Source: Streptomyces sp. NBC_00344
GTDB taxonomy: Bacteria; Actinomycetota; Actinomycetes; Streptomycetales; Streptomycetaceae
Assembly (NCBI RefSeq): GCF_036088315.1
Contig: NZ_CP107996.1
Coordinates: 1,942,501-2,006,500, forward strand
Length of the DNA: 64,000 nucleotides
Direction: 5' to 3'
The position numbers were made by a program, and so were the translations under genes. The notes under the pieces are model-generated. The model did no database searches and had not been told where the DNA came from. It saw only the letters and a program-made list of their open reading frames with translations. Shown one piece after another: positions 48,138-63,986 of this stretch (position 1 is the stretch's first letter; each line of letters starts with the position of its first letter).

Positions 48138-48434
48138 TTACAGATTGGCGTCCGGCAGCAGGGGAACCTCGGCCCGGACGACCTCCCAGGCGGTCAGCGC
48201 CTGGTGGCACGACCAGACCCGCCTGCACAGCGCCTCGGCGCCCGCTTCCGCCGCTTCCAGCGTAGGTGCCCGCAGATAGATCCCGAGGACGGGCTGCGGG
48301 AACGCTTCCGCGTGCACGCTGACATGCTCGAAGCCTTCCAGGCCGGCCGCGCAGTCGGCGATGGCCGTCGCTGTCCACTCCGGTAGAAGATCACCGCTCG
48401 AGCGGGAGCGCAGATGAACATGGACGAGATACAT
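48138..48434 (-). CDS. Conserved-looking hypothetical 98-aa protein
   Basis: Product begins MYLVHVHLRSRSSGDLLPEW, contains FEHVSVHAEAFPQPVLGIYL, and ends AWEVVRAEVPLLPDANL. The alternating hydrophobic pattern suggests a small ferredoxin-like alpha/beta fold. I recall similar short proteins in Streptomyces next to small secreted peptides, function unknown. No catalytic motif visible. It is divergent from the LuxR regulator at 48642 across 207 bases that should hold both promoters. Confidence 0.6.
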   Translation of the reverse strand: MYLVHVHLRSRSSGDLLPEWTATAIADCAAGLEGFEHVSVHAEAFPQPVLGIYLRAPTLEAAEAGAEALCRRVWSCHQALTAWEVVRAEVPLLPDANL

Positions 48435-48641: not shown

Positions 48642-49634
48642 ATGCTTGATCTCCTCGGACTTGACGCTGTCGCAGAATCCGTCTATCGGGGGATGCTCGG
48701 GCGCCCCCAGGGGGTGGCCGAACTCTGTTCGCTGCTGGACCTCTCCGAGCGTGACGTACGGGATGCGCTGGACCGGCTGAGCGCGATGGCCCTGGTACGC
48801 GCCTCCGTCAACGACCCCGATGAGCTTCATGCGGTCAGCCCGCACGTGGGGATGGAACTCCTTCTCTCCGAGCAGCAGGCGCAGGTCGCCGCCCAGCAGC
48901 AGCGGCTCGAGGCGAGCCGTGCGGCCGCGGCGAGACTGATCCTCGAGTACGACGGCCAGCAGCAGCCGGGCGGCTCGGGGGTGCGCTATCTCGAGAGCCT
49001 GGAGTCCATCCGCGACCATCTGGCGTCCCTGCACAACCATGTCGCCCAGGAGCTCCTGACGTTCGCACCGGGAGGACCGCAGACCGTCGCCAACATGGAA
49101 GCCTCCAAACCGCTCAACCAGCAGTTGCTGGAGCGCGGAGTGGAAATGCGGACCGTCTACCTCGAAAGCATCCGCAGCGACCCGGACACTCTTGAGCACG
49201 CACACTGGCTCACCCAGCGCGGCTGCCAGGTGCGCACGGTGCCGTCGCTGCCGAACCGGATGATCATTTACGACCGGAAGTCAGTGATCATCGCGTCCGA
49301 CACGGACAACACCGCGGCCGGCGCCGTGGAGCTGACCTCCCAGGGCATGATCGCCCCACTGCACGCACTGTTCGAGAGCGTGTGGCAGTCCGCAGACCCT
49401 CTGGAAGTTCGGGTGCAGCCGGATCCCGGCTCCCTCACTCGTCAGCAGGCCGAAGCTCTGCGGTTGCTGGCCCAGGGGTGCACGGACGAGGCTATCGCGA
49501 AGCGGCTCGGCGTCTCCACTCGTACATCACGTCGGATCGCGGCCGGGCTGATGACCTATCTCGGTGCACGCAGCCGATTTCAGGCCGGTGTCTACGCGGT
49601 GCAGAAGGGCTATCTGCCGTCCTGCCCCGACTAG
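48642..49634 (+). CDS. TrmB-like/LuxR-type transcriptional regulator
   Basis: 330-aa regulator. Residues 1-70 form a TrmB-like winged helix (LDAVAESVYRGMLGRPQGVAELCSLLDLSERDVRDALDRL), followed by a Gln-rich coiled coil (LLLSEQQAQVAAQQQRLEASRAAAARLIL). The central phospholipase-D-like sensor (ERGVEMRTVYLESIRSD; VPSLPNRMIIYDRKSVIIASDT) leads to a C-terminal LuxR helix-turn-helix (LTRQQAEALRLLAQGCTDEAIAKRLGVSTRTSRRI). This architecture is common for orphan regulators inside actinobacterial biosynthetic clusters. It faces the small-protein/secreted-peptide genes, suggesting a shared regulatory unit. The ATG is chosen with GGAG about 12 bases upstream. Confidence 0.88.
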   Translation: MLDLLGLDAVAESVYRGMLGRPQGVAELCSLLDLSERDVRDALDRLSAMALVRASVNDPDELHAVSPHVGMELLLSEQQAQVAAQQQRLEASRAAAARLILEYDGQQQPGGSGVRYLESLESIRDHLASLHNHVAQELLTFAPGGPQTVANMEASKPLNQQLLERGVEMRTVYLESIRSDPDTLEHAHWLTQRGCQVRTVPSLPNRMIIYDRKSVIIASDTDNTAAGAVELTSQGMIAPLHALFESVWQSADPLEVRVQPDPGSLTRQQAEALRLLAQGCTDEAIAKRLGVSTRTSRRIAAGLMTYLGARSRFQAGVYAVQKGYLPSCPD

Positions 49635-49691: not shown

Positions 49692-50270
49692 TCACGCCGT
49701 TCCGGCGAGAGCCGGCTCGGTGAGGCCCAGCCGCTGCAGAGCCTCTTCACAGGTGTCGGCGACCTGGAGCAGCAACCGTTCCTTCAGAGAGAGGAATCCC
49801 TCGGAGACCAGGTGGTCCAGCATGGCCAGCATGGGGTCGAAGAACCCGCGGTGGTTGACGACCACGACGGGTTTCTCGATCAGACCGAGCTGGTTCCAGG
49901 TCGCCACCTCCATCAGCTCGTCGAGCGTGCCGATGCCACCGGGCAGCACGGCGAACCCGGAGGCCAGCCGGTACATCAGGGCCTTGCGCTCATGCATGGA
50001 ACGGACGACGAAGGTCGCGCCGGGAGCCTCGACGGCGCGCTCCCGATCACGGAGGTGCAGCGGGATCACTCCGGTGACTCCCCCGCCGGCGGCCACCGCG
50101 CCGGCCGCGACGGCGCCCATGACGCCTGCCCCGCCCGCGCCGTAGACCAGACCGAGTCCGTGCCGGGCGAGCGCCGTACCGAAGTCCCGCGCGAACAGCA
50201 GGTCCTCGTCACGGACACCTGGCCGGGCACCGCAGAACACCGCGATACTCCTGCCTTCTCGTTCAGACAT
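49692..50270 (-). CDS. LOG-family phosphoribohydrolase (TIGR00730)
   Basis: 192-aa Rossmann-fold protein of the LOG/YvdD family, which cleaves nucleoside 5'-monophosphates to base and ribose phosphate (cytokinin-activating in plants and some actinobacteria). Motifs: IAVFCGARPGV, LVYGAGGAGVMGAVA and the active-site signature VLPGGIGTLDELMEVATW. The ATG at 50270 follows GGAGGAG. It is 64 bases downstream of the M20 hydrolase on the same strand. A role in the peptide pathway is not obvious; it may be carried along or act on a nucleotide cofactor. Confidence 0.88.
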   Translation of the reverse strand: MSEREGRSIAVFCGARPGVRDEDLLFARDFGTALARHGLGLVYGAGGAGVMGAVAAGAVAAGGGVTGVIPLHLRDRERAVEAPGATFVVRSMHERKALMYRLASGFAVLPGGIGTLDELMEVATWNQLGLIEKPVVVVNHRGFFDPMLAMLDHLVSEGFLSLKERLLLQVADTCEEALQRLGLTEPALAGTA

Positions 50271-50334
50271 CTTCTTGACTCCTCCGTGCCTCGTGGACGT
50301 GGTTCGTGGGGTGGCTGGTCGGCGGACCTGCGGA

Positions 50335-51618
50335 TCACTCGGCATGGTCGACCGTCCGGAGCACGGTGCGCAGCAGCACGCGGGCGCCGTCGACGAGATC
50401 CACGGCCGCGGTGTCCTCTTCCGGAACATGGCTGATCCCGCCGATACTGGGGACGAAGATCATGCCGATGGGGGCGATGTCGGCCACCATCTGGGCGTCG
50501 TGTCCCGCTCCGCTCGAGAGCACCTCGCTCGGCAGCCCGAGCTCGTCGGCGCTGTTCTCGATGGCCCTCTGCAGTGTGCGGCTCGTGGACACCGGGTCGG
50601 AGCGCGTTTCGGCCACCACCTCGATACGGGTGCCGGTCGATTCGGCGATCACCCGCAGTGCGTACCGCAGAGCCTCCTCGGCGGCCGCCGCCCGCCAGAC
50701 ATCCGTGTCCCGCAGGTCCACCGTCATCCGGACCGCGCCCGCGATGGTGTTGGGTGTGTTCGGGTGGGCTTCGAGCCGGCCCACCGTGGCGACCCTGCAC
50801 AGGCCGCGGTCCCGGGAGAGGTTCTCCGTGGCCAGCACCACCCGGGCCGCCGCGGTGAGCGCGTCCCGGCGCCCCTCCATGGGGGTGGTCCCGGAGTGCC
50901 CGGCGGAGCCGGTGACCTCCAGGGTGAGAACGATCCGCCCGGTGATGGCATCCACCACGCCGATCCGGTTGCCGCTGCGCTCCAGCACCGGGCCCTGCTC
51001 CACATGGAGTTCGAGGTACGCGGCCACCGAGCCGCGGGGCCAGCCGGCGCTGCCGAGCGCGTCCAGGTCTCCGCCGGCCAGCCGCAGCGCTTCGCGCAGC
51101 GGCCGCCCGTGGTGGTCCGCGGGTTCACGGGGCAGCCCGGCCAGACGCCCGGCAATCGCCATGGAGCCCCAGAACGGCTGGGGGAACAGCGCGCCCTCCT
51201 CGTTGGCGAAGGCCACGGCGACCGGCTCGTACCGCGGCTCGATGCCGGACTCCTCGAAGGTCTGCAGTACCTCCAGCGCGGCCAGCACGCCGTAGGCACC
51301 GTCCAGCCGACCGCCGTTGACCACGGTGTCGAGATGCGATCCCATCATCAGAGCCTGTCGCTCCTCGCCGTGCGCGACGGGTCGCGGGCGGATGACGACG
51401 TTCCCCGCGGCATCCACGGCGGGGACCAGACCGGCCGCTCTCGCCTCGTTCATGAGGTAGGTCCTGGCCTCCCGGTCGGCCGGGGAGAAGCCCTCCCGGC
51501 TGATTCCCCCGGTGGCGGGGTCCCTGCCGATCCTGCCCAGTTCCTCGATCCGCCGCAGCAGCCGGGCCGCGTCGATGTCCAGCGACAACAGGGCCTGCTG
51601 GACAAGTGTGTTGGCCAT
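50335..51618 (-). CDS. M20-family N-carbamoyl-amino-acid hydrolase/allantoate amidohydrolase-like
   Basis: 427-aa zinc or manganese amidohydrolase of the hydantoinase/carbamoylase group. Metal-site segments: MMGSHLDTVVNGGRLDGAYGVLAALEVLQ, VAFANEEGALFPQPFWGS, LELHVEQGPVLERSGNRIGV, and near the end SSGAGHDAQMVADIAPIGMIFVPS. Members remove N-carbamoyl groups from amino acids. Next to a carbamoyltransferase this invites a role in de-carbamoylation, precursor recycling or self-protection, an inference only. The ATG at 51618 (MANTLVQQALLSLDI) is used; the longer frame upstream is low-complexity. Diverges from the S9 protease across the StrR operator. Confidence 0.87.
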   Translation of the reverse strand: MANTLVQQALLSLDIDAARLLRRIEELGRIGRDPATGGISREGFSPADREARTYLMNEARAAGLVPAVDAAGNVVIRPRPVAHGEERQALMMGSHLDTVVNGGRLDGAYGVLAALEVLQTFEESGIEPRYEPVAVAFANEEGALFPQPFWGSMAIAGRLAGLPREPADHHGRPLREALRLAGGDLDALGSAGWPRGSVAAYLELHVEQGPVLERSGNRIGVVDAITGRIVLTLEVTGSAGHSGTTPMEGRRDALTAAARVVLATENLSRDRGLCRVATVGRLEAHPNTPNTIAGAVRMTVDLRDTDVWRAAAAEEALRYALRVIAESTGTRIEVVAETRSDPVSTSRTLQRAIENSADELGLPSEVLSSGAGHDAQMVADIAPIGMIFVPSIGGISHVPEEDTAAVDLVDGARVLLRTVLRTVDHAE

Positions 51619-51972: not shown

Positions 51973-53913
51973 ATGCTACCTACGGATATCAGCCTGCTTC
52001 CCGTGCTGGGCCGGCCGACGCTCTCGGCCGACGGACGGTACGCGGTCGTCGGCGTCACCCGCCCCGACCTGAACCTCGACGAGAACGTCAACGAACTCTG
52101 GCTGGCGGAGACCGACGGGACCGCCCCGGCCCGCCGGCTCACCCGGGGTCCGTACGACGGTGCACCCGCCTTCTCCCCCGACGGGCGCTGGCTCGCGTTC
52201 CAGCGGCCGGGGCCGGACGGCTCGGGCCAGGTGCATCTGATGCCGATGGGCGGCGGCGACGCCTTCCCGGTCACCTCGCTGCCGATGGGCGCCGGCCAGC
52301 CGGTCTGGAGCCCGGACTCCCGCCGTATCGCCTACACCTCGCGCGTCCCCCAGCCGGGCCGCTACCAGAAGGGCGTGCCGGCGGCCAACGAGGCACCGCG
52401 GAGGATCACCACCCTGCGCTTCATGGCGGACGGATTCGGCTACACCTTCGACCGGCCGCGTCAGGTCTTCGTCACTGACCCGTTCAGCGAAGAACTGACC
52501 ACCACTCAGGTCACCAGCGGCGAGTACGACCACTCGGACGTGGCCTGGAGCCCGGACGGGGAACTGCTGACGTTCGTCGCCGGCCGGCACGAGACGCACG
52601 CCGACGACCTCAGGAACGACATCTGGCTGAGCGCTCCCGACGGCACCGGCCTGCGCGCCCTGACCAGTGGCGGACTGGTCCTCGGCTGCCCACGGTTCAC
52701 CCCCGACGGCCGGAACGTCGTCTTCGCGGCCGAGCCGCTCAACGCGGAGAACCGCGCGTTCGCGACCAGCAGCTTCGGGCTCTGGACCGTACTCGTCGAC
52801 GGATCCGCCCCGCCGCTACGGCTCACCGACCCCGAGCCGTACCACCTGAGCTTCGCCAGCCAGATGATCGTTCCCGGCAACGAGGGCGTCTACTTCGCCA
52901 ACGACCACCAGGGCGAGGTCAACCTGGTGCTGGTGCCCTACGACGGCGCCGAGCCCAAGCCCGTACTCACCGGGCACCGGCAGGTGAACGGGTACGCCGT
53001 CGCCGAAGGGCCGAACGGTGTGACGGTGGCGGCCGTGGTCTCCAGCGCCGGAAGCGCGGGCGACCTCGTACTGGTACGCAACGGGGTCGAGCGCGAAGTG
53101 ACCTCGTTCGGCAGCGAGCTCCGCTCCCGGGCCTCGCTCCTGCCGGTGGAGGAGTTCACCGCGACCGGGGACGACGGCTACGAACTGCACGGCTGGGTGG
53201 TGCGTCCGGCAGGCGAGGGCCCGCACCCCGTCATCCTGCAGCTCAAGGGCGGACCCTTCACCCAGTGGGGATACACCCTCAACGGGCCGGCCTCCTTCGA
53301 GGAGGCGCAGGTCTACGCGAGCGCCGGTTACGCGGTCGTCCTGGGCAACCCGCGCGGTACGTCCGGCTACGGCCAGGCGCACGGCATGTACGCACTCGCC
53401 GACCTCCCCCGCAGGACAGCGAAGGATCTCCTGACGCTGCTGGACGCGGCGCTGGAGGCCCCGGACCTGGACAGCGACCGCGTCGGCACCCAGGGCGGTT
53501 CGTTCGGCGGCTACATGTCCGCGTGGATGGCGGCCCATCACGGCGACAGGTTCCGGGCCACGATCGGTGAACGCGGCTGCTACGCGATCGACAGCCACTT
53601 CGCATCGGCGGACGACGGCGTCAACAACTCGATCGCGCTCTACGGTCCCGACACCGAGCGCTGGGCGGACGCGAGCCCGCTCACCTATGTCGACCAGATC
53701 AGTACGCCCATGCTGCTGATCCAGTCGGAGGAGGACCGGCACACCCCGATGGAACAGTCCCAGCGCATGTTCGTGGCGCTCAAGATGCGGGGCGTGCCCG
53801 TCGAGCTGCTGCTGTTTCCCGGCGAGGGCCACGACATGTCACGCACCGGACTTCCCAGTCACCGGCTCGCGCGCTACGAGGCAATTCTGGAGTGGTGGGC
53901 GCGCCACCTGTGA
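51973..53913 (+). CDS. S9 prolyl-oligopeptidase-family serine protease
   Basis: 646-aa cytoplasmic-type S9 peptidase: an N-terminal WD40-like beta-propeller (LPVLGRPTLSADGRYAVVGVTRPDLNLDENVNELWLAE region, repeated SPDGRW/SPDGEL motifs) and a C-terminal alpha/beta hydrolase. The triad is Ser510 (GGSFGGYMSAW), Asp588 (QSEEDRHTP) and His620 (GEGHDMS). The family cuts short peptides; dedicated prolyl-oligopeptidases remove leaders in several RiPP pathways (for example the omphalotin-type and PCY1 systems). Positioned behind a perfect StrR operator and upstream of the peptide genes, it is the best candidate leader peptidase. No signal peptide, so it acts inside the cell. Confidence 0.9.
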   Translation: MLPTDISLLPVLGRPTLSADGRYAVVGVTRPDLNLDENVNELWLAETDGTAPARRLTRGPYDGAPAFSPDGRWLAFQRPGPDGSGQVHLMPMGGGDAFPVTSLPMGAGQPVWSPDSRRIAYTSRVPQPGRYQKGVPAANEAPRRITTLRFMADGFGYTFDRPRQVFVTDPFSEELTTTQVTSGEYDHSDVAWSPDGELLTFVAGRHETHADDLRNDIWLSAPDGTGLRALTSGGLVLGCPRFTPDGRNVVFAAEPLNAENRAFATSSFGLWTVLVDGSAPPLRLTDPEPYHLSFASQMIVPGNEGVYFANDHQGEVNLVLVPYDGAEPKPVLTGHRQVNGYAVAEGPNGVTVAAVVSSAGSAGDLVLVRNGVEREVTSFGSELRSRASLLPVEEFTATGDDGYELHGWVVRPAGEGPHPVILQLKGGPFTQWGYTLNGPASFEEAQVYASAGYAVVLGNPRGTSGYGQAHGMYALADLPRRTAKDLLTLLDAALEAPDLDSDRVGTQGGSFGGYMSAWMAAHHGDRFRATIGERGCYAIDSHFASADDGVNNSIALYGPDTERWADASPLTYVDQISTPMLLIQSEEDRHTPMEQSQRMFVALKMRGVPVELLLFPGEGHDMSRTGLPSHRLARYEAILEWWARHL

Positions 53914-53961: not shown

Positions 53962-54078
53962 TGGAGATCACGCCGACGCAGCACGACTGGCATGCCATCA
54001 ATTCCTGATGTCGTGATCCCGGCCATGACGAGCCATGAACCCAGAACGTCGAGTCGATCAGAAATGAGGCAAGCCACC

Positions 54079-56040
54079 GTGAATTCCCGCGTCGAGGACT
54101 ATTTTCTCTCCGCTTACATGACTCCGCCCGGCGAACGCTCGGTGGTGTCCCCGCGTCATGATCACAACGTGTCCCTGTGGCGGCGGACGGCGAATGCCGT
54201 TCAGCTGGTCCGGCACTGGGAGTTCGAGCGCATCAGCGGACGCAAGCACCACTCCGCTCCGCTGTACACACCGGCCCGTGCCGAAGCGTTCCTGAACGGA
54301 CTCCTCGAGACCGAGGGACTGACCCTCGCCGACATCCGCACCACCTGGGGCACCCCGGGGCTCCCCGCCCACAGCCCGCTCCCGATTCCGGCCGGCGCCG
54401 AGGACTTCGCCCTGCACACCCTGGCGCACCTGTTCAGCGGACTACTGCTGGACACCAGGATCTTCAAGGAGCAGAACATCATCGCCATGGCGGTGGACGC
54501 GGCGCCGGACCTGGTCCTCGAGGACCAGCGTCCCGCGCACGACTACGCGGGCTGCATCTCCGTCGGAGGCCGCCTGACCTTCGCGCCGGTGGACTCCCCC
54601 GCGCCGCTGTACCACGCGGCGGACCGGCTGTTCGGCAAGGAACCGGGCACCCTGATGGCACTCGCGTCCGCGTCCCGTGCCGAGATCACCTTCGACGCGG
54701 CCGCCGCGATCGCCGACCTGAAGCTCACCGGCGGCCGGGTTCCGCCCTGGCCGGCGGCGTTCGGTCTGCTCAACGCGGTCATCGCCGAGGCGGAGCGGCA
54801 GTTGGAAGGGCAGTCCCCCGACAACCGCTTCACGGCGGATGAGAACCTGCAGAGCGCGGTCATGAAGGTGGTGCAGAGCTGCTGCGACCTCATCATCGCC
54901 CGCAACATCGAGCAGCTGAGCCATCTGGGCGGCGTGCGCACCGAGGACTGCCATCTCTCGATGAGCGGCGGGTTCGCGCTGAACTGCCCCACCAACACGC
55001 TGTCGCTGAACCGCTTCGGCTTCCGCGGTCTGCTGGCCCCGCCGTGCGCCAACGACTCGGGGGAGGCCCTCGGTCTCGGCCTGCTGGGGCTCTACGGAAC
55101 CGGGGCCTTCGACGACGCGGACCTGGTCATCGAGACGGCCTACTACGGCAGTGAACTGCGGGACACCGACGCCGCGCTGGCCGAGTTCGCGCCCTGGATC
55201 GCCGAGGTGGACGACTTCTCACCCGAGCAGTTCGTCGAGGACCTGACCGACGACGTGGTGGCGTGGGTGGACGGCGCCGCCGAGATGGGGCCGCGCGCAC
55301 TCGGCCACCGCAGCCTGCTGGGCGACCCCCGCTCGGAGAAGGTGAAGGATCTCCTCAACGAGTACAAGCACCGTCAGTGGTGGCGGCCGGTCGCCCCCAT
55401 CGTGCTGCTCGAACATGTCGGTGAGTGGTTCGACCAGAGCCGGCCCTCGCCCTTCATGCTGGAGGCCGTGCAGGTCCGCGAGGAGGTCCAGGACAAGGTC
55501 CCGGCCATTCTGCATCTGGACGGGTCGGCCCGCCATCAGACCCTCACCGCGCAGGCGAACCCCTTGCTGTACCGGGCCATTGACGAGTTCCGCACCGCCA
55601 CCGGCGTGCCGATCGTGTGCAACACGTCCCTGAACGACCGGGGCGAGCCGATCGTCGACACCGCCGCCGAGGCTCTCACCTTCTGTGTCCGCAAGGGCAT
55701 CAGGATCGCGTACCTGGGGGGCCGGCGGGTGGTCCTGCGTACGGACGAGTCCGTGCCGCCCGCCGAGGTTCCGGCCGGCCCACGGCCGCGCCAGGATCAC
55801 TGGTTCACGGGCCAGGAGGAGGAGCACACGGCGATCTGGGCCTCCTGGCTGGAGCGCGGCTACACGGAGGAGAGCCTGATGCTCCTCACAGGTACCCCCC
55901 AACTGCTCAGCGATCCCGCGACGTACACCCCGAACCGGGTCAATCTGCTCGCGGAGCGGATAGCCGCCGCCGACCCGGGGTTCAAGAAGAACCTCGACGA
56001 GTTCCGCCGGGACAACGGCCCGAAGCCGTCCGGCGGCTGA
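54079..56040 (+). CDS. NodU/CmcH-family O-carbamoyltransferase
   Basis: 653-aa carbamoyltransferase of the TobZ/GdmN/CmcH type, transferring carbamoyl from carbamoyl phosphate via carbamoyl-AMP to a hydroxyl group. The N-terminal YgjD-like domain includes HWEFERISGRKHHSAPLY and MSGGFALNCPTNTLSLNRFG. The C-terminal domain has EMGPRALGHRSLLGDPRSEKVKDLLNEYKHRQWWRPVAPI (split by function: RALGHRSLL and KHRQWWRPVAP), PAILHLDGSARHQTLTA and GVPIVCNTSLNDRGEPIVDTAAEA. GTG 54079 has GAGG nine bases upstream; ATG 54064 is an alternative adding five residues. In this cluster its acceptor could be a hydroxylated peptide side chain or tyrosine phenol. Confidence 0.9.
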   Translation: MNSRVEDYFLSAYMTPPGERSVVSPRHDHNVSLWRRTANAVQLVRHWEFERISGRKHHSAPLYTPARAEAFLNGLLETEGLTLADIRTTWGTPGLPAHSPLPIPAGAEDFALHTLAHLFSGLLLDTRIFKEQNIIAMAVDAAPDLVLEDQRPAHDYAGCISVGGRLTFAPVDSPAPLYHAADRLFGKEPGTLMALASASRAEITFDAAAAIADLKLTGGRVPPWPAAFGLLNAVIAEAERQLEGQSPDNRFTADENLQSAVMKVVQSCCDLIIARNIEQLSHLGGVRTEDCHLSMSGGFALNCPTNTLSLNRFGFRGLLAPPCANDSGEALGLGLLGLYGTGAFDDADLVIETAYYGSELRDTDAALAEFAPWIAEVDDFSPEQFVEDLTDDVVAWVDGAAEMGPRALGHRSLLGDPRSEKVKDLLNEYKHRQWWRPVAPIVLLEHVGEWFDQSRPSPFMLEAVQVREEVQDKVPAILHLDGSARHQTLTAQANPLLYRAIDEFRTATGVPIVCNTSLNDRGEPIVDTAAEALTFCVRKGIRIAYLGGRRVVLRTDESVPPAEVPAGPRPRQDHWFTGQEEEHTAIWASWLERGYTEESLMLLTGTPQLLSDPATYTPNRVNLLAERIAAADPGFKKNLDEFRRDNGPKPSGG

Positions 56041-56257: not shown

Positions 56258-56764
56258 GTGACAACCGAACGCATCCCGCCGCCCGCGGTCGCGGGTGAGC
56301 GGGAGATGATCCGCGCTTTCCTCGACTACCACCGCTCGACGCTGGCCATGAAGTGCGACGGCCTCTCCGACGAGCAGCTGCGCCGGCAGTCGATGCCACC
56401 CTCGACACTCTCCCTGCTCGGTCTGGTACGGCACATGGCCGAGGTGGAACGGGCGTGGTTCCGCCGGATCTTCGACGGGGAGGACATCCCTCTCGTCTGG
56501 TCGGACAGCAGGGACTTCCAGGTGGCCTACGACGCGAGCACGTCCACCAGGGCCGAGGCGTTCAGCGCCTGGGAGACGGAGGTGGAGCACGCCCGCCGTA
56601 TCGAGGAGAAGGCCGAGTCCCTCGATGTGACCGTCTATGAGCCGAAGGGCGGGGAGGACGTGTCCCTGCGCCTGGTGATGTTCCATCTGATTCACGAGTA
56701 CGCCCGGCACAACGGTCACGCCGACCTCATCCGCGAAGGGATCGACGGCACCGTAGGCGCCTGA
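56258..56764 (+). CDS. DinB-fold protein, DUF664 type
   Basis: 168-aa four-helix-bundle protein of the DinB/YfiT superfamily. The family metal-binding histidines are visible: LGLVRHMAEVERAWFRRIF and MFHLIHEYARHNGHADLIREGI. Relatives include thiol-dependent S-transferases and isomerases, and many of unknown function. GTG start with AAGGA upstream. It is a single-gene unit flanked by terminators at both ends, placed between the carbamoyltransferase and the peptide genes. A part in the pathway, for instance a mycothiol-dependent step, is possible but unsupported. Confidence 0.85.
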   Translation: MTTERIPPPAVAGEREMIRAFLDYHRSTLAMKCDGLSDEQLRRQSMPPSTLSLLGLVRHMAEVERAWFRRIFDGEDIPLVWSDSRDFQVAYDASTSTRAEAFSAWETEVEHARRIEEKAESLDVTVYEPKGGEDVSLRLVMFHLIHEYARHNGHADLIREGIDGTVGA

Positions 56765-56787
56765 GCCGCACCACCGCATCGTCATCC

Positions 56788-56833
56788 GATCCGCCGTCCG
56801 GGCGGGGCAACCAGCACGCCCGGGCGGCGGATC
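56788..56833 (+). terminator. Terminator before the peptide operon
   Basis: A 17-bp stem (56788-56804 with 56817-56833, one G-U pair) and a 12-base loop. It ends the DinB-fold transcript 30 bases ahead of the StrR-like operator, insulating the peptide promoter. Confidence 0.8.
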
Positions 56834-56863
56834 AGTCATGCCCGGGTACGTGGCGGATGAATT

Positions 56864-56892
56864 GTCCAAGTGCCGATTTTCCTCAGTTGAAC
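56864..56892. promoter_or_regulatory. Degenerate StrR-type operator before peptide genes
   Basis: GTCCAAGTG, 11 bases, CAGTTGAAC. The right arm is identical to the perfect operator at 51848-51856 and the spacer has the same length; the left arm differs at two of nine positions. It lies 95 bases upstream of the peptide -35 box. Probably a weaker StrR site. Confidence 0.65.
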
Positions 56893-56983
56893 GCCGGGTT
56901 TGCCGCGTAATTCCCGCCCCTGCACGCCCGCCGGCAGTTCGGAGCCGGTGAATGAACGGCCCCGAAGCCGCTCCGTAATCGCA

Positions 56984-57016
56984 TTGATTGACACCCGGTC
57001 ACGGGCACCCCAATAT
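56984..57016 (+). promoter_or_regulatory. Promoter of the precursor-peptide operon
   Basis: TTGACA (56988-56993), 17-bp spacer, CAATAT (57011-57016). The -35 is perfect; the -10 is weak, as expected for an activator-dependent promoter. The surrounding TTGATTGAC (56984-56992) repeats that at the S9 protease promoter. Confidence 0.5.
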
Positions 57017-57072
57017 GAATATCGAACCGAGCACAACAGCTCGGGGGAATGCAGAAGACAAAGGAGAACATC

Positions 57073-57144
57073 ATGAGCGACATCGAGTTCATCGAGACCG
57101 CCGCTGAGACCCTCGCCGCGTCGTACTACGTCAACATTCAGTAA
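57073..57144 (+). CDS. Precursor peptide, copy 1 (23 aa)
   Basis: Twenty-three-residue peptide beginning MSDIEFIETAAETLAAS and ending in the hexapeptide YYVNIQ. It has an optimal AAGGAG site six bases before the ATG. The acidic, helical first part looks like a RiPP leader, and the polar aromatic end like a core. It has no Cys, and no Ser or Thr after residue 17, so lanthionine or azole chemistry on the end is excluded. Hydroxylation or carbamoylation at Tyr, Val, Asn or Ile is feasible. Assignment as a precursor rests on the tandem copies, the ribosome sites and the enzymes downstream; I recognise no described family. Confidence 0.8.
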   Translation: MSDIEFIETAAETLAASYYVNIQ

Positions 57145-57248
57145 TTGCTACCGCAGTGCGGGGCACCCAACGGGCAGCCGGCCACTGCGGGCAGCGAACT
57201 GCATGACGTGTCATTCCACGAACTAACCAAACCTGAATGGAGAACATC

Positions 57249-57320
57249 ATGAGCGACATCGAGTTCATCGAGACCGCCGCCGAGACCCTCGCCGCGTCGT
57301 ACTACGTCAACATTCAGTAA
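57249..57320 (+). CDS. Precursor peptide, copy 2 (23 aa)
   Basis: Encodes exactly the same 23 residues as copy 1, with one synonymous change (Ala11 GCC instead of GCT). The ribosome site is weaker (TGGAG rather than AAGGAG) because the repeat unit begins at the GGAG. It lies 104 bases after copy 1 with an 8-bp inverted repeat between them, which may stabilise or trim the transcript. Confidence 0.8.
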   Translation: MSDIEFIETAAETLAASYYVNIQ

Positions 57321-57424
57321 TTGCTACCGCAGTGCGGGCCACCCAACGGGCAGCCGGCCACTGCGGGCAGCGAACTGCATGACGTGTCATTCCACGAACT
57401 AACCAAACCTGAATGGAGAACATC

Positions 57425-57496
57425 ATGAGCGACATCGAGTTCATCGAGACCGCCGCCGAGACCCTCGCCGCGTCGTACTACGTCAACATTCAGTAA
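57425..57496 (+). CDS. Precursor peptide, copy 3 (23 aa)
   Basis: Identical at the nucleotide level to copy 2. Its downstream sequence departs from the repeat after TAATTGC and runs into a strong 18-bp hairpin instead of another spacer. Three identical copies multiply peptide dose relative to the modifying enzymes, a usual RiPP strategy. Confidence 0.8.
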   Translation: MSDIEFIETAAETLAASYYVNIQ

Positions 57497-57502
57497 TTGC
57501 CG

Positions 57503-57544
57503 CCGCGGTGGAGGGGGGCCGACCTTGGCCCCCCTCTACCGCGG
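57503..57544 (+). terminator. 18-bp hairpin between peptides and JmjC genes (attenuator)
   Basis: Stem 57503-57520 with 57527-57544 (one G-U pair) and loop GACCTT, seven bases after the last peptide stop codon. It has no T-tract. Partial termination here would give abundant short peptide mRNA and less read-through to the oxygenase and transporter genes, for which I see no separate strong promoter. Confidence 0.75.
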
Positions 57545-57627
57545 GCACTGCCCGGCCACGACCGGGCCCACATCGACAAAAATCGTTGGTGATCTGCAAA
57601 AAGCTGACGGACCAGAATGGAGTGACC

Positions 57628-58836
57628 ATGGAGAGTTATACGTTCGGCGACCTCGTCGGGGACGAGAAGCTCTTTTTCTCCGAATACTTCAACAAGAAGC
57701 CGCTGCTGCGCAAGGGCGCACTGAAGGGCAACCCGAGCGACATTCTCTCCATCGGCAGGCTTGACGAGCTGGTCAACTCGGAGATCATCCGGCCGCCCTA
57801 CCTCAGGATCAACCTGAAGGGCACCGGCGTTCCCGAGAAGGGCTACACCAGGACCGTCACCGTCCAGGGAACCGACATCACGGATTCCATCGTGCCCGAG
57901 CGCGTGTACGAGCTGTACCGCGCGGGCGCGACTCTGGTCTGGAGTTCGCTCAACCACATCGAGCCGTCGCTCCGTTCCTTCTGCCGGGTCATCAGCGACA
58001 AGTTCGGGGCCCGCACCGACTGTGTCGCCTTCCTGACGCCGGCCGGTAAGCAGGGGTTCTCGGCCCACCACGACCCGGTCGACCTCTTCATCGTGCAGAC
58101 CGAGGGAACCAAGCGGTGGAGGATCTGGAACTCCCCGTCGGAGCGCCTTGCCGAGACCGCCTCGTACACCCAGGAGGAGCTCGGTGAGCCGTCGATCGAG
58201 GTGCTGATGGAGCCGGGTGACGTTCTCTACCTCCCCTACGACACCCCGCACGCGGCCGCTGCCGAGGAGAAGGTCTCGGTCCACCTGTCCATCATGGTCA
58301 GGCCGCGGATGTGGAAAGAGCTGTTGCAGCAGACGGTCGAAACGCTGATGCAGGAGCCGGAGTTCAACACCTTCCCCTACATCGGGGAATCCCGTGACGC
58401 CGATGTCGAGTCCGAGTTCGCCAGGAAGATCGCCTCTCTTGCGGAGAGGATGCAGACCGTCGATTCCGAATCGGAGCTCGACCGGCTGCTGGACACCGGA
58501 CGCTACACCGACCCCGGGCGGCCTGCGCGCATTCCGGTGGGAGACACGTTCAAAGCGTCGGCGGAGCTCGACGTCGTGAATCCGGATGCGCAGCTGCGGC
58601 GCACCAAGGTGCCCGTCGAATTCGGCGCGAACGACAACGGGCGCACCCAGATGTCGTTCAAGGGACACAAGATCGCGGTGCCTTCGCCGGTCGCCGAGGT
58701 TCTTGCCGGTCTGGTCGAAGGCGGTCTGGTGAGGGCGGCGGATGTCTTCCCCGACATGCCGGCGGAACGCTCCGCGAAGACCGCACAGGGGCTCGCCAGG
58801 CTGGGAGTCCTCGAAGTGGTCGCGGCTCACGCCTGA
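57628..58836 (+). CDS. JmjC/cupin-4 Fe(II)/2-oxoglutarate oxygenase 1
   Basis: 402-aa oxygenase of the ROX (RoxA/MINA/NO66) type that hydroxylates protein or peptide residues. The N-terminal LFFSEYFNKKPLLRKGALKG matches the family wxxKPLL start. The iron ligands are His147 and Asp149 (SAHHDPVDLFIVQTEGTKRW) and His208 (GDVLYLPYDTPHAAAA). A helical C-terminal segment (LAGLVEGGLVRAADVF) resembles the winged-helix tail of these enzymes. ATG 57628 is preceded by GGAG; it agrees with its paralogue's N-terminus, so earlier in-frame starts are rejected. Likely modifies the adjacent peptide at a beta-carbon, for example Asn, Val or Ile. Confidence 0.9.
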   Translation: MESYTFGDLVGDEKLFFSEYFNKKPLLRKGALKGNPSDILSIGRLDELVNSEIIRPPYLRINLKGTGVPEKGYTRTVTVQGTDITDSIVPERVYELYRAGATLVWSSLNHIEPSLRSFCRVISDKFGARTDCVAFLTPAGKQGFSAHHDPVDLFIVQTEGTKRWRIWNSPSERLAETASYTQEELGEPSIEVLMEPGDVLYLPYDTPHAAAAEEKVSVHLSIMVRPRMWKELLQQTVETLMQEPEFNTFPYIGESRDADVESEFARKIASLAERMQTVDSESELDRLLDTGRYTDPGRPARIPVGDTFKASAELDVVNPDAQLRRTKVPVEFGANDNGRTQMSFKGHKIAVPSPVAEVLAGLVEGGLVRAADVFPDMPAERSAKTAQGLARLGVLEVVAAHA

Positions 58837-58898
58837 GTGAGCCGGATGGACGGCCGGGATCAACCGGAACCGTTACGGTCCCTAGGAGGCGACACACG

Positions 58899-60083
58899 AT
58901 GGGTATCCACACTTTCGAGGATGTGGTCGGTGATGTACCGGCCTTCTTCTCGGAGTACTTCAACAAAAAGCCGCTCCTGCGGCAGGGCGCTCTTGTGGGC
59001 CGTCTCCAGGACATCCTGTCCGTCCGCCAGCTGGACGACATCGTCACCATGGAGACCGTTCTCCCCTCGTACCTTCGGATAGCGAAGGACGGCAAAGGGG
59101 TATCGCCCAAGGCGTATACGCGCACCGTGACCCCGCAGGGCGCCGCCCTGGCAGAGACCGTGATACCCGAGAAGGTGTACGAGCTCTTCCGCTCCGGCGG
59201 CACCATCACCTGGAATTCACTGCAGCATTTTCTGCCTTCGGTCCGGGGACTGCTCGATGTCCTCACCGACACCTTTTCGGCACGCAGTGAGGCGGTCGCG
59301 TTCCTGACTCCCGCTCTGAAGAACGGGTACGCACCGCACCACGACCCGGTGGATGTGTTCATCTTCCAGGTCGAGGGCACGAAGAGCTGGAAGCTCTGGG
59401 ACGCTCCGGCGGTCCGCCGGGGCGATGAAGCGACGTACAGCATGGAAGAGCTCGGCGACCCGAGTATCGAGATCACGCTTCATCCCGGCGATGTGCTCTA
59501 CATCCCGCACAACACACCGCACGCCGCTGCCGCCCAGGAGGAGATCTCCCTCCACCTCTCCGTCATCGTCGAGCCGCGCAGATGGCGTGACCTGGTGCGC
59601 GAGACGGTGGTGGAGGCCCTGGCCGACGACGACTTCCACGACTTCCCGTACCTGGGCGACGAGTCCGCGGTGGCTCTCGATCTGGCAGCCAAACTGCGCA
59701 CGCTGCAGGACAGGCTGCACCACATCGATCCCGTGTCCGAGATCAAGCGTCTGACGGTGAGTGGCCGCGGCAGCACCAGCAGGCCGCGGGAGTTCGAACG
59801 GCTTTCCGCGGTGGACGTGTTCGGCACCGGAACCCGTATCCGCCGCAGCACGGTGCCGCTGGACATCGGGGAGAGCGACGGAGGCAGGACGGTGCTCAGG
59901 ACCGGCGGCCACCGGCTGGCAGTGCCCGACGCCGTGGCAGCCGTGCTGCGGGATCTGGAGGCCGGCGGCTCGGTGACCGCGGCCGGGTTCTTCCCAGGTG
60001 TTCCCGAAGACCGCTCCCTGCGCGCCGCACAGGGACTTGCCCGGCTCGGCGTGCTCGAGGCCGCCGAAGAGACGAGGAGCTGA
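58899..60083 (+). CDS. JmjC/cupin-4 Fe(II)/2-oxoglutarate oxygenase 2
   Basis: 394-aa paralogue of the preceding oxygenase, with the same layout: FFSEYFNKKPLLRQGALVG, iron ligands His147 and Asp149 (APHHDPVDVFIFQVEGTKSW) and His208 (GDVLYIPHNTPHAAAA). The three ligand positions fall at identical residue numbers in both proteins, so the pair arose by duplication and both sites are kept. Sequence differs enough elsewhere to suggest two target residues or sequential oxidations. It lies 62 bases after the first oxygenase, with GGAGG upstream of the ATG, and six bases before the transporter. Confidence 0.9.
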   Translation: MGIHTFEDVVGDVPAFFSEYFNKKPLLRQGALVGRLQDILSVRQLDDIVTMETVLPSYLRIAKDGKGVSPKAYTRTVTPQGAALAETVIPEKVYELFRSGGTITWNSLQHFLPSVRGLLDVLTDTFSARSEAVAFLTPALKNGYAPHHDPVDVFIFQVEGTKSWKLWDAPAVRRGDEATYSMEELGDPSIEITLHPGDVLYIPHNTPHAAAAQEEISLHLSVIVEPRRWRDLVRETVVEALADDDFHDFPYLGDESAVALDLAAKLRTLQDRLHHIDPVSEIKRLTVSGRGSTSRPREFERLSAVDVFGTGTRIRRSTVPLDIGESDGGRTVLRTGGHRLAVPDAVAAVLRDLEAGGSVTAAGFFPGVPEDRSLRAAQGLARLGVLEAAEETRS

Positions 60084-60089
60084 ACCCCC

Positions 60090-61376
60090 ATGGCTGACAG
60101 TGCAACCCGGCCGACGGAGCACCACCCCGGCCCCTCACAGGTCCCGGCGTGGCGCGACGTGTACATTCTCGCGAGCATCCGCGGGCTGTCGGTCGCGGGC
60201 GACATCATGGCAGCGACGGCACTCACCCTGATGCTGCAGAAGAACGGGGCGGGCGCCTACGCGGTCATGGCCCTGCTGCTGGCCGCGACGGTTCCGCCGG
60301 TGCTGCTGTCGCCCCTCACGGGCCGCTTCGCCGACCGGTTCGACAGCCGCCGTCTGATCGTGACGGTGGGCACTCTGCAGGCCCTGGTCTGTGCGGCGAT
60401 GACCATGTTGTCCTCGCCTGCCCTGCTCATCGCTCTGTCGGTGCTGCTGTCCACCGGACTGGCCTTCACCCACCCGGTGTTCGGCGGACTGCCCGGGGCC
60501 ATGGTCGGCAAGGAGAACGTACCGAGGGCCTCCTCGATCTCACAGACCACCGCCATGGGCGGCATGGTGGCCGCCCCGGCCGTCGCCGGCTTCATGACCG
60601 GGCATTTCGGGGTGACCATCCCGCTGGCCCTGGACTCCGTGAGCTTCCTGGTCGTGGCACTCGGCGGCCTGCTCATCACCACCCGGCTGCACCCCAACCG
60701 CGGTGGCGCTGCGCAGCCCGGCGACGGCACACAGCCGGCGGAGGCCGTCTACCGGATCTCCTCCGACCGCTTCCTGCGGGCCGTGCTGGTACTGAGCGGC
60801 GCCGTGATGGCATGCGCGTGCATCATCAACGTCCTGATCGTCTTCTACGTCCGCGACACCTTCGGCGCGTCCGACCAGGTCTACGGGCTGATCATGTCCT
60901 CCTGGATGGTGGGGCTCGTACCGGGAGCACTGCTGGTCCGACGGATCAAGAGGCTGAGCCACGAGTTCATCCTCATCGGCTCCTTCCTCTGCATCGGCGT
61001 GGGGATTCTGGGTGCGGGGCTGGCCCCCAGCGTCTGGTGGATCGCCCCGTTCTACATGCTCGGCGGATTCGGCAACGGGGCCCAGGCCACGGTGACGCAC
61101 ATCCTGCTCAACCTGCGGGTTCCGCAGGCCTACCGGGGCAGGGCGTTCGCCGCACTGGGTGCCGTCTCCAACACCGGCCCGGTCACCGGATACCTCCTGG
61201 GCGGAGTCGTGCTGAGCTTCACACAACCGAGGTACGCCTTCTTCGCCGCCGGTGTGTTCGTCCTGCTCGCTCTGCTCGGGTTCGCCAAGAACGTCCTCAA
61301 GTCGGCGTCCGAGCCGGCCGTGGAGGCACCGCTGAGCACGACGCCGGCGGATGCGGCCGCGGCCGCGGCTTCCTAG
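60090..61376 (+). CDS. MFS transporter, likely product exporter
   Basis: 428-aa 12-helix major facilitator of the MFS_3/enterobactin-exporter-like group. WRDVYILASIRGLSVAGDIMAATALTLML is helix 1; LLSPLTGRFADRFDSRRLIVTVG is motif A-like; GGLPGAMVGKENVPRASSISQTTAMGG follows, then six more helices to LALLGFAKNVLKS. The start lies six bases after the second oxygenase stop codon, so it is the last gene of the peptide operon and is followed by a terminator. Export of the finished peptide or self-protection is the natural role. Confidence 0.88.
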   Translation: MADSATRPTEHHPGPSQVPAWRDVYILASIRGLSVAGDIMAATALTLMLQKNGAGAYAVMALLLAATVPPVLLSPLTGRFADRFDSRRLIVTVGTLQALVCAAMTMLSSPALLIALSVLLSTGLAFTHPVFGGLPGAMVGKENVPRASSISQTTAMGGMVAAPAVAGFMTGHFGVTIPLALDSVSFLVVALGGLLITTRLHPNRGGAAQPGDGTQPAEAVYRISSDRFLRAVLVLSGAVMACACIINVLIVFYVRDTFGASDQVYGLIMSSWMVGLVPGALLVRRIKRLSHEFILIGSFLCIGVGILGAGLAPSVWWIAPFYMLGGFGNGAQATVTHILLNLRVPQAYRGRAFAALGAVSNTGPVTGYLLGGVVLSFTQPRYAFFAAGVFVLLALLGFAKNVLKSASEPAVEAPLSTTPADAAAAAAS

Positions 61377-61541: not shown

Positions 61542-61874
61542 TCAGATCACGTCCTCGAGCTCTTCGAGCAGGCGTCGCTTCGGCCTCGCGCCGACCATCG
61601 ACTTCACCGGTTCCCCGTCACGGAACACCATCAGTGTCGGCATCGACAGCACGCCGTACCGGATCATCACCTCGGGGTTGCTGTCCACATCGAGCTGAAC
61701 GACCTTGAGGCGATCGGCCGTTTCGGCGGCGACCGCGCTCAGCACCGGGGCGAGCTGACGGCAGGGCCCGCACCAGTCGGCGGTGAACTCGACCAGGACC
61801 GGCCGGTCCGCCTCCAGCACCTCGACTGCGAAGTCGGCATCCGTCACGGCGTCTATGCCATCTGCGTGGATCAT
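61542..61874 (-). CDS. Thioredoxin
   Basis: 110-aa thioredoxin with the active site WCGPC (Cys35, Cys38), the cis-proline segment VLSMPTLMVFRDGEPV and the buried-Asp region VLVEFTADWC. It reduces protein disulfides in the cytoplasm with electrons from thioredoxin reductase. Its ATG overlaps the stop codon of the MerR gene by four bases, so the two are co-translated and the regulator probably senses redox or metal stress. It is outside accessory block 2, and a link to the peptide is not implied. Confidence 0.95.
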   Translation of the reverse strand: MIHADGIDAVTDADFAVEVLEADRPVLVEFTADWCGPCRQLAPVLSAVAAETADRLKVVQLDVDSNPEVMIRYGVLSMPTLMVFRDGEPVKSMVGARPKRRLLEELEDVI

Positions 61875-62281
61875 CTCTGCTCGTCCTCCCGGTGGACCAG
61901 TTCACAGCGCGGTTGTGGACCCTGAGGCAACTCCGACTCGGCGCGGGCCAGTTGCGCCCCGACCTGGTCACGGACCCCCTGCAGCTGTCCGATCAGCGAA
62001 TCGAGCTCGGAGAGTTTGCGCCGGTAGACGGCCAGCGAGGCAGGACACAGATCGCCCGCCGGGTGCCCGGCACGCAGGCACTCCACGAAGGGCCGGGTGT
62101 CCTCCAGCTCGAACCCGAAGTCCTGGAGGGTTCTGATCTGCTGGAGCAGCCGCAGATCGTCCTCGTCGTAGGTGCGGTAGCCGTTCACCGCCCGCCGGGC
62201 GGGCAGCAGCTCGCGGGACTCGTAGTAGCGCAGGGTGCGGGTGGTCGTCCCCGCTCGCTCCGCCAGCTCGCCGATTCGCAT
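61871..62281 (-). CDS. MerR-family regulator of the thioredoxin operon
   Basis: 136-aa MerR regulator: MRIGELAERAGTTTRTLRYYESRELLPA is the winged helix, followed by the long dimerisation helix (LYRRKLSELDSLIGQLQGVRDQVGAQLARAE-like region). Three cysteines (Cys68, Cys79 in GDLCPAS, and Cys126) could form a metal or redox sensor, but the spacing matches neither SoxR nor MerR exactly. The ATG at 62281 gives the standard family N-terminus; the longer frame is rejected. Overlap with the thioredoxin gene suggests it regulates its own operon. Confidence 0.9.
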   Translation of the reverse strand: MRIGELAERAGTTTRTLRYYESRELLPARRAVNGYRTYDEDDLRLLQQIRTLQDFGFELEDTRPFVECLRAGHPAGDLCPASLAVYRRKLSELDSLIGQLQGVRDQVGAQLARAESELPQGPQPRCELVHREDEQR

Positions 62282-62336
62282 GCCCCGAAGGTAATCCTTG
62301 ACGCCGACGTCAAGGCAAGCACCGGGGGCCGGCACA

Positions 62337-63929
62337 TCAGACCGGAGCCGTGATCCGCTCGTCGGACGTCCGCGCTCCGGACTCCTCTCGCCGCCCGCGG
62401 CCCGGTACGAGTACCCCCACGATCACGGTGCCCACCCCGAGGACCACCGCGCCGACCAGGCTGGTGTGCGCGACCGCGTCGGCGAAGGCGCTGTGCACCG
62501 CGTTCACCAGTGCCTGTGCCTGCTGCGGCCCTGCCTGGGCGCCGGCCTTCCGCGCCACTGCGAGCCCGGCCCCCACCGAGTCCTGCGCGGCACTCAGCGC
62601 GCCCGCGGGAAGCCTGCCGCCGGCCGCGTGGGCGAGGTGCGATGAGTAGGCACCGGACAGCACCGAGCCGAGAATCGCGATGCCCAGGGAACCGCCGAGC
62701 TCGATCGAGGTGTCGTTGACCGCTCCTCCGACTCCGAGTTCCGACTCGGGGAACGCGCCCATGATCGCCTCCGTGCAGGGTGACAGGGCCAGACCGATGG
62801 CCAGGCCGAGCAGGACGAGCGGCGCGACGAAGTCCCCGTACCCCGAGCCCGCATCGATACGGGTGAGCAGGGCGAGCGCCGCGGTACCGCCGGCCATCCC
62901 CGCGGTGACCGTCACCTTCATCCCGAGGCGGGGCGTGAGCAGTCCGGTCAGGGCCGAGCCGACGAAGACCGCTCCGGCCAGCGGGAGCATCCGTACACCG
63001 GTCTCGAAGGCGTCGTAGCCGAGGACGAACTGGAGGTGCTGGGTCAGGTAGTAGAAGGCGCCGAAGACAGCCAGGAAGAAGAGTGCGACGGCGATGTTGG
63101 ACCCGGCGAAACCGCGGTCGAGATAGCGCCGCACGTCCAGCACCGGGCGCGGATGACGCAGCTCCCACACCACGAAGAGGATCAGGCCGGCGCCCGCGAT
63201 CACGGCGGCGGTCACGGCCTTGACACCCCACCCGAAGTGCGGGCCTTCGATGATCATGTAGACGAGTGAGCCGACGGAGACGACCGACAGAGCGCCGCCC
63301 ACGACATCGATCCTGCCGTGCTGCCCGGCCCTGGACGGCGGCACCAGAACCAGGGCTCCGACGATGGCCAGCGCCGTGATCGGGACATTGATCAGGAACG
63401 TCGCGGACCAGCCGTGGTCCCGCAGCAGCGCCCCCGCCACCAGCGGCCCGGCGGCGATGGCGAGCCCGGCGGTGGCCGTCCACAGGACGATCGCCCTGGC
63501 CCGTTCGGCGCGCGGGAAGGTCGCGGCGAGCAGCGAGAGGGTGGCAGGCATGATCATCGCCGCACCGACGCCCATGACGGCCCGGGCCGCGATGACTCCG
63601 GCCCCGCTGCCCGCCATGGATCCGGCGACGGCCCCGCCGCCGAAGACCGTCAGCCCGATGACGAGTGCCCCGCGCCTGCTGTACTTGTCGCCGATGGCGC
63701 CGAGCAGCAGCATCAGCGCGGCGTACGGGACGGTGTAGCCGTCGATGACCCACTGCAGGTCCGCGTCGCCGAGTCCCAGGTCCTGGGTCATGTCCGGTGC
63801 GGCGACCGTCAGCGCGGTGTTCGCCATCACGATGATCAGCAGACTCAGGCACAGAACCAGCAGCGCCCACCAGCGGCGCCGGTAGGGCCCGTCCATTTCG
63901 GCGACCGGCTGTTTCACGATCGGACTCAT
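62337..63929 (-). CDS. MFS drug transporter, DHA2 (14-TM) family
   Basis: 530-aa multidrug efflux pump: RRRWWALLVLCLSLLIIVMANTALTVAAP (helix 1), LLLGAIGDKYSRRGALVIGL (motif A), LWTATAGLAIAAGPLVAGALL (motif C) and further segments to VVLGVGTVIVGVLVPG, about 14 helices as in the EmrB/QacA group. ATG 63929 follows GGTGGAG. The promoter region contains two adjacent palindromes of the same sequence type, 22 and 40 bases upstream, which should bind a repressor encoded divergently just beyond the window. Confidence 0.9.
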   Translation of the reverse strand: MSPIVKQPVAEMDGPYRRRWWALLVLCLSLLIIVMANTALTVAAPDMTQDLGLGDADLQWVIDGYTVPYAALMLLLGAIGDKYSRRGALVIGLTVFGGGAVAGSMAGSGAGVIAARAVMGVGAAMIMPATLSLLAATFPRAERARAIVLWTATAGLAIAAGPLVAGALLRDHGWSATFLINVPITALAIVGALVLVPPSRAGQHGRIDVVGGALSVVSVGSLVYMIIEGPHFGWGVKAVTAAVIAGAGLILFVVWELRHPRPVLDVRRYLDRGFAGSNIAVALFFLAVFGAFYYLTQHLQFVLGYDAFETGVRMLPLAGAVFVGSALTGLLTPRLGMKVTVTAGMAGGTAALALLTRIDAGSGYGDFVAPLVLLGLAIGLALSPCTEAIMGAFPESELGVGGAVNDTSIELGGSLGIAILGSVLSGAYSSHLAHAAGGRLPAGALSAAQDSVGAGLAVARKAGAQAGPQQAQALVNAVHSAFADAVAHTSLVGAVVLGVGTVIVGVLVPGRGRREESGARTSDERITAPV

Positions 63930-63950
63930 GCTGCTCCACCTCTCCCCGAC

Positions 63951-63986
63951 TTGCACATCGCTGTGCAATTACACACTGCTGTGCAA
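63951..63986. promoter_or_regulatory. Two abutting TetR-type operators
   Basis: Site 1 (63951-63968) is TTGCACA-N4-TGTGCAA, perfect. Site 2 (63969-63986) is TTACACA-N4-TGTGCAA, one mismatch, placed immediately next to it. Eighteen-base sites side by side suit cooperative binding of a TetR-family dimer pair. Such a repressor gene would be expected just right of the window. Confidence 0.75.

Follow-up and report, generated by a model that had tools for sequence, protein, structure and literature searches.

A candidate RiPP cluster of undescribed type with paired JmjC oxygenases in Streptomyces

JmjC oxygenases, including the ROX (ribosomal oxygenase) enzymes, are familiar chiefly from work on ribosomes and histones. 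The ROX enzymes carry out Cβ hydroxylation and, to our knowledge, the purpose of their winged helix is unclear. Here we analyse a cluster in a stretch of 64,000 nucleotides, referred to as the window, from the 7.06-Mb genome of Streptomyces sp. NBC_00344 (contig NZ_CP107996.1, positions 1,942,501 to 2,006,500), in which genes for a 23-residue peptide stand beside two genes for ROX-like oxygenases, JmjC1 and JmjC2. The cluster probably encodes a pathway of undescribed type for a ribosomally synthesised and post-translationally modified peptide (RiPP), the precursor being oxidised by the two JmjC enzymes, each with a domain resembling the RiPP recognition element (RRE). Like the ROX enzymes NO66, MINA53 and YcfD, the two proteins combine a JmjC domain with HxD...H ligands and, in predicted models, a C-terminal winged helix; unlike them, they occur as two tandem copies in a peptide cluster, with no sign of a ribosomal substrate.

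The published pathways closest to this one are compared here. In biphenomycin-type RiPPs the JmjC/cupin hydroxylases BipG and PbsQ act on ornithine in the precursor, among MNIO, arginase and B12-radical-SAM reactions (PMC12707348, PMC12257519). That a JmjC enzyme can hydroxylate a RiPP is thus already known. In biphenomycin, however, it is a late tailoring step, and for the cluster described here the MNIO, arginase and B12-radical-SAM families were not among the window cluster proteins scanned with Pfam, nor does the core contain Phe-Arg-Phe. The crocagin pathway combines a 21-residue precursor with a C-terminal core, CgnA, with a 2-oxoglutarate (2OG) dioxygenase, a protease and a carbamoyltransferase (PMC10070186), and a tiny precursor, 2OG oxygenase, protease and carbamoyltransferase are found together here as well. 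The crocagin core is Ile-Tyr-Trp and the M29-like CgnB and CgnE match no Pfam family (PMC10070186), whereas the peptides described here contain no Trp, their core reads Y-[YH]-x-N-I-Q in 13 of 13 clusters, and the putative peptide-binding domain sits on the oxygenase itself. In the std pathway, StdF, an S8/S53 peptidase fused to a NodU-like carbamoyltransferase, carbamoylates Lys (PMC13174530); a NodU-type enzyme is shared with our cluster, but no YcaO or MNIO was found among the cluster proteins scanned, and the six precursors that accompany a carbamoyltransferase have no Lys. Few 2OG enzymes have been characterised in RiPPs; most of them are hydroxylases, and one, described recently, forms a Cys-Tyr crosslink (PMC12636437). 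Compared by description, the Cys-Tyr macrocyclase RiPPs also have a 2OG oxygenase as a main enzyme, whereas none of the 13 precursors here contains Cys. Finally, a survey of RREs describes PF08007 proteins of fish and algae that carry a fused RRE-like fold, and places the nearest bacterial JmjC homologues, at ∼30% identity, in RiPP-like settings; the parts of it drawn on here contain no description of the JmjC pair, the peptide or the cluster (PMC12710340).

As an earlier sequence-only reading of this DNA had stated, there is no LanB/C, YcaO, P450, radical SAM or ATP-grasp protein among the ten other cluster proteins scanned with Pfam, and LanM and similar lanthipeptide families were likewise not found among them; a YcaO-TfuA pair does, though, stand beside the JmjC gene of another genome, G329, described below. 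Membership of the biphenomycin, crocagin, lanthipeptide and YcaO classes was rejected, since their marker enzymes were not found among the proteins scanned or their core features were not found in the precursors. In the open-access literature, which includes few subscription journals, no description of the peptide or of the JmjC pair was found, and the string YYVNIQ occurs in no paper. Within that literature the cluster is new as a RiPP type, the shared recognised modifying enzymes being the JmjC pair.

The precursor peptide and the two oxygenases

Three copies of the precursor gene, each an open reading frame (ORF) with a ribosome site, lie on the + strand at 57073–57144, 57249–57320 and 57425–57496. 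All three encode one identical 23-residue peptide, MSDIEFIETAAETLAASYYVNIQ, with GGAG six bases 5′ of each ATG, as had been claimed from the sequence alone; the sole difference between copy 1 and copies 2 and 3 is a single synonymous base. The copies are embedded in a 176-bp direct repeat of ribosome site, precursor and spacer (57060–57587, + strand; units starting at 57060, 57236 and 57412), copies 1 and 2 being 98% identical and copy 3 68% identical over the whole unit. A chance ORF or simple repeat artefact was considered and ruled out, as 12 further genomes contain the ORF and most of the changes between them are synonymous.

The JmjC pair was found in 13 genomes, twelve presumably of Streptomyces and one of Kitasatospora (L073). 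A small ORF ending Tyr-(Tyr/His)-x-Asn-Ile-Gln-stop accompanies it in all 13, so the objection that such pairs never accompany such ORFs fails. Scanning genome contigs with an alignment gave eight loci, three already in the set (G248, G100 and G417) and five new; with a single protein as query, the scan returned 41 pattern matches, none of them a relative. When 392 genomes of the genus were read as DNA for Y-[YH]-x-N-I-Q-stop, the motif occurred at 14 places in eight genomes, all in JmjC clusters, and these eight are exactly the eight that contain the pair; the reversed pattern, used as a control, matched once. Exact overlap of two sets of eight in 392 has odds of about 1 in 10^16, to be read in the light of related genomes not being independent trials. 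At E ≤ 1e-60 JmjC1 has matches in 10 of the 392 genomes, namely the eight with pairs and G329 and G135, with one gene each. Candidate dedicated modifying enzymes that are adjacent to the precursor and co-occur with it, as expected of a RiPP, are thus seen in the same 8 of 392 genomes.

Each cluster has one to three precursor copies, giving 21 copies with 13 distinct DNA sequences over the 13 clusters, and the peptides are 23–29 residues long. Counting back from the C-terminus, D-I-E-F-I-E-T (-21 to -15), A-9, Y-6, N-3, I-2 and Q-1 are invariant in 13 of 13; position -5 is Y in 10 and H in three, and position -4 is V in seven, K in five and T in one. Judged by its sequence, this is a short gene-encoded precursor with a conserved putative leader and a putative C-terminal core in every cluster, as is typical of RiPPs. 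Of the 78 pairs that the distinct precursor DNAs form, 74 show a rate of nonsynonymous change (dN) below that of synonymous change (dS), and the precursor is under selection as a protein. The place of the ORF is not constant: in G417, G156, G211, L069 and L070 it lies between a mycothiol-transferase-like gene and JmjC2, after JmjC1.

JmjC1 (57628–58836, + strand) and JmjC2 (58899–60083, + strand) match PF08007 at 2.2e-26 and 1.6e-23, respectively. The sequence-only reading had described two JmjC oxygenases with intact His-Asp-His followed by an MFS gene, and this held: both proteins contain the iron ligands His147, Asp149 and His208 (His-x-Asp...His), a PF07690 gene follows, and the two proteins are assigned as ROX-like Fe(II)/2OG oxygenases. 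The three ligands are invariant in eight of eight aligned JmjC1 and eight of eight aligned JmjC2 sequences, and intact in all 26 paired JmjC proteins of the 13 clusters. The nearest solved structures are the peptide/protein hydroxylases NO66, matched at 2e-26 by JmjC1 and at 5.9e-27 by JmjC2, and MINA53. The claim that no RRE is present cannot stand in that form, as both proteins are predicted to end in an RRE-like winged helix. The models are confident there only, and the predicted domain resembles PqqD, TbiB1 with bound leader, TigE, TbtB, McbB and PbtF. In a rebuilt tree, containing besides the paired proteins five outgroup rows with HYD...H, the G135 protein and ten members of distant pairs, JmjC1 and JmjC2 form separate clades (support 98/97 and 100/99), both also seen in an earlier tree, with the G135 protein beside the JmjC1 clade (96/86).

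Between precursor copy 3 and JmjC1 lies a strong predicted RNA hairpin of 58 bases (57499–57556, + strand), with a folding energy of -49.3 kcal/mol, a z-score of -5.99 and no equal among 200 shuffles; the stems after copies 1 and 2 are weaker (z of -0.8 and -2.0). A terminator scan gave no T-run match at 57499–57556, and a scan of 56700–57700 for sigma-70-type promoters found none. The hairpin may be a partial terminator or an RNA-stabilising element, and could damp read-through or protect the precursor message. The proposal of a single operon is therefore to be qualified: the genes do share a strand, the hairpin separates the precursors from JmjC1, and the operon itself is putative.

The other genes of the cluster

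The interval first proposed, 57063–61376, does contain the genes ascribed to it, but the cluster is about three times longer, spanning ∼48.6 to 61.4 kb. The left-hand genes are assigned to it because they recur with it across the 13 loci, where gene order and strand vary. The initial parts list was accordingly incomplete, having missed the S9 peptidase, carbamoyltransferase, amidase, LOG protein, transferase and regulator described below. JmjC1, JmjC2, the S9 peptidase and the LOG protein are each present in 13 of 13 loci.

The leftmost gene assigned a family encodes a LuxR-type (GerE) transcription regulator (48642–49634, + strand; PF00196, 5.2e-7) with a homologue in 12 of 13 loci, L073 being the exception. 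It is followed on the - strand by a LOG/TIGR00730 family gene (49692–50429; PF03641, 7.6e-38; TIGR00730 above cut-off; motif PGGIGTLDE), the true start of which is uncertain, homology spanning 49725–50261, and by an M20 amidase of the hydantoinase/carbamoylase family (50335–51618, - strand; PF01546, 1.7e-22; TIGR01879, 3.7e-110, above cut-off), which is present in 12 of 13 loci and absent only from L071, over the 21 kb of that locus. Neither LOG nor the carbamoylase-type M20 protein has an obvious role in peptide maturation, although both genes (49692–51618) recur with the cluster. The candidate leader protease is an S9 prolyl-oligopeptidase-like peptidase (51973–53913, + strand; PF00326, 1.4e-38; motif GGSFGG). 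Next come a NodU-type carbamoyltransferase (53992–56040, + strand; PF16861, 4.1e-56; HTLAH motif) and a DinB/mycothiol-S-transferase family protein (56258–56764, + strand; PF04978, 3.5e-45), each in six of 13 loci and strictly together in the same six.

The MFS transporter at the other end (60090–61376, + strand; PF07690, 1.1e-37) is a candidate exporter. An MFS gene is found in 13 of 13 loci, eight of the window's kind (≥68% identity) and five divergent, the latter tied to the window's MFS through protein clustering only. An M13 peptidase is present in 12 of 13 loci, that of the window excepted; a search of the window's genome gave no match at E ≤ 0.001, an empty result that with this search shows little. 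A TPR_5 protein occurs in five of 13 loci, L074, which ends a short way upstream, not being judgeable. Checked against motif patterns, the S9 (GGSFGG, 4/4), M13 (HExxH, 4/4), LOG (3/3) and carbamoyltransferase (HxxxH, 4/4) proteins agreed, and for M20 three of four patterns gave nothing or one stray match.

At the edges of the cluster, a 98-residue protein with no Pfam match (48138–48434, - strand) recurs in eight of 13 loci. On the other side, a thioredoxin, a MerR regulator and a large MFS-like ORF follow on the other strand at 61542–63968. Within a limited look these are not conserved with the cluster.

Single and distant JmjC relatives

The two close single relatives stand in different settings. 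In G329 (L057:7443–15280) a single JmjC protein, 42% identical to JmjC1, is encoded with YcaO, TfuA, MFS and methyltransferase genes. A 29-residue ORF there, MNLDTDLDMDMDIELIESETDDLITQYVP, has a DIE(F/L)IE leader motif in common with our precursors, and its DIELIESETDDL recalls DIEFIETSAELL; transposase genes separate this ORF from the JmjC gene. In G135 (L058:5170–12851) the JmjC gene lies in a class I lanthipeptide-like cluster with LanB, LanC, an ABC transporter and a Cys-rich small ORF nearby. With the eight pair clusters, this places ten of ten close JmjC1 homologues in the genus sample in a RiPP-like setting.

Five distant tandem JmjC loci were chosen (L082 to L086), and a candidate small ORF was seen in four of them. 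In L082 (6074–8182) and L083 (6632–8722), tandem JmjC genes for proteins of 289–300 residues stand beside 63-residue peptides with a signal-like stretch and a common C-terminal sequence, KVEA-x-CG-x-C-x-x-DVI; this looks like another paired-JmjC peptide family. In L085 (2109–6763) and L086 (986–6740) the tandem JmjC genes are accompanied by YcaO, TfuA and a protein of 617–669 residues, and the small ORFs of both loci end in INEA; one JmjC protein of the L086 pair shows no HxD. L084 showed no small ORF resembling those of the other four. A scan for small ORFs with the leader pattern in 28 distant JmjC loci (∼1.5-kb flanks) together with L057 and L058 returned the G329 ORF as the only notable match, three others looking like noise. 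JmjC-like matches of any kind are frequent (46 of 100 relatives at E ≤ 0.001), so the marker of the cluster is this subfamily and not the JmjC family at large.

The proposed pathway, its alternatives and its meaning

What we see directly are the ORFs, selection at the protein level, strict co-occurrence, intact iron ligands, the fold class of the enzymes and the set of genes; a RiPP cluster, as the sequence-only reading had proposed, is by far the best reading of them. On this reading the JmjC pair supplies the only recognised modifying enzymes common to all 13 clusters. In the pathway that we infer, including the order of its steps, each oxygenase would bind the leader part of the precursor (D-I-E-F-I-E-T) through its RRE-like winged helix and then oxidise at least one side chain of the C-terminal hexapeptide, most likely by Cβ hydroxylation. 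The candidates are the invariant Tyr-6, Asn-3, Ile-2 and Gln-1, together with the Tyr or His at -5. Asn had been singled out as the target at the outset; Asn-3 shares its invariance across all 13 clusters with Tyr-6, Ile-2 and Gln-1, and Asn is accordingly one candidate and only a guess. The S9 peptidase, with M13 in 12 of 13 clusters, would remove the leader and perhaps trim the core, and the MFS protein would export the product. In the carbamoyltransferase subtype the NodU-type enzyme may cap either a newly introduced hydroxyl or the N-terminus released by cleavage. Carbamoylation of Lys, as in the std pathway, is excluded there, since position -4 is Val in all six clusters and their precursors contain no Lys.

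Several observations weigh against this proposal. A search of 394 genomes of the class at E ≤ 1e-60 finds the pair in just one, the genome of the window itself, although the class-wide sample must be thin, as the Kitasatospora locus L073 exists despite this result. In four of the 78 precursor pairs dN exceeds dS, all four involving close pairs. In G100 neither precursor copy has an ATG at the expected position, and the cluster there may be silent or use another start; in that genome (L075, Streptomyces sp. NRRL WC-3605; stops ending at 8970 and 9873) the reading frame is conserved despite the missing ATG. The RRE-like domain also belongs to ROX enzymes that act on ribosomal proteins, and among its matches at equal Z (about 6) are carbamoyltransferases, GdmN and NovN, which are not RREs, so that its presence is not proof of leader binding. 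The G135 protein stops at residue 313, without the winged helix, and RiPP-linked JmjC proteins thus do not all need one. Finally, the catalytic domains are poorly modelled, with a mean predicted local distance difference test score (pLDDT) of 48.5 for JmjC1 and 47.5 for JmjC2.

Consumable peptide scaffolds are known for pyrroloquinoline quinone (PQQ), mycofactocin and the pearlins, and the peptide could be another: modified by the JmjC pair, it would be cut by the S9, M13 and M20 enzymes to release a modified amino acid or a di- or tripeptide as the real product. Two peptidases and an amidase are nearly always kept (S9 in 13, M13 in 12 and M20 in 12 of 13 loci), the M20 protein belongs to a hydantoinase/carbamoylase family and is no plain peptidase, and the core is nearly invariant, its last seven residues changing at -4, -5 and -7 only. 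Nothing shows cleavage inside the core, however, and the window's genome has no M13 match, by the search noted above as weakly informative when empty. The exporter and the scattered distribution (8/392) fit either reading, and on balance we regard a consumed scaffold as unlikely.

Being short, repeated, strongly conserved and beside a LuxR-type regulator and an MFS gene, the peptide might also be a signal or pheromone secreted unmodified, with the JmjC proteins acting elsewhere. This is very improbable, given that the motif is never found without the JmjC pair in 392 genomes, that the single JmjC genes closely related to the pair belong to clusters of accepted RiPP types and have small ORFs alongside, and that an MFS protein would be an unusual exporter of free signal peptides. 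That the ORF is a regulatory leader (an attenuator or upstream ORF) and the pair ribosomal oxygenases, for example for self-resistance, is less probable still: the closest solved relatives are indeed ribosomal-protein hydroxylases and a strong hairpin follows the last ORF, yet the ORF's amino acids are under selection, and leader-peptide attenuation is unlikely because its position varies (after JmjC1 in the five loci named above) as does its copy number (one to three).

The RiPP reading can be extended to a broader proposal, on which we are evenly balanced. Paired JmjC enzymes, here with RRE-like domains, would define a RiPP group in which YYxNIQ peptides are one member, and tandem pairs with CG-x-C-x-x-DVI peptides or with INEA peptides beside YcaO-TfuA are others; in the carbamoyltransferase subtype the hydroxyl set by a JmjC enzyme would be O-carbamoylated, the carbamate perhaps leaving for mycothiol and so installing sulphur. 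This role of the carbamate as a leaving group for a thiol is a bold idea, though one open to testing.

If the favoured reading is true, this would be a RiPP pathway built on ROX/JmjC oxygenases alone, and the winged helix of the ROX enzymes would gain a testable role as a module for leader binding, which would tie these enzymes to RREs. With so small a precursor and so few parts, reconstitution in E. coli should be direct. Tandem PF08007 genes with a small ORF would then also be a mining handle for clusters that searches for LanB/C/M, YcaO or radical SAM miss.

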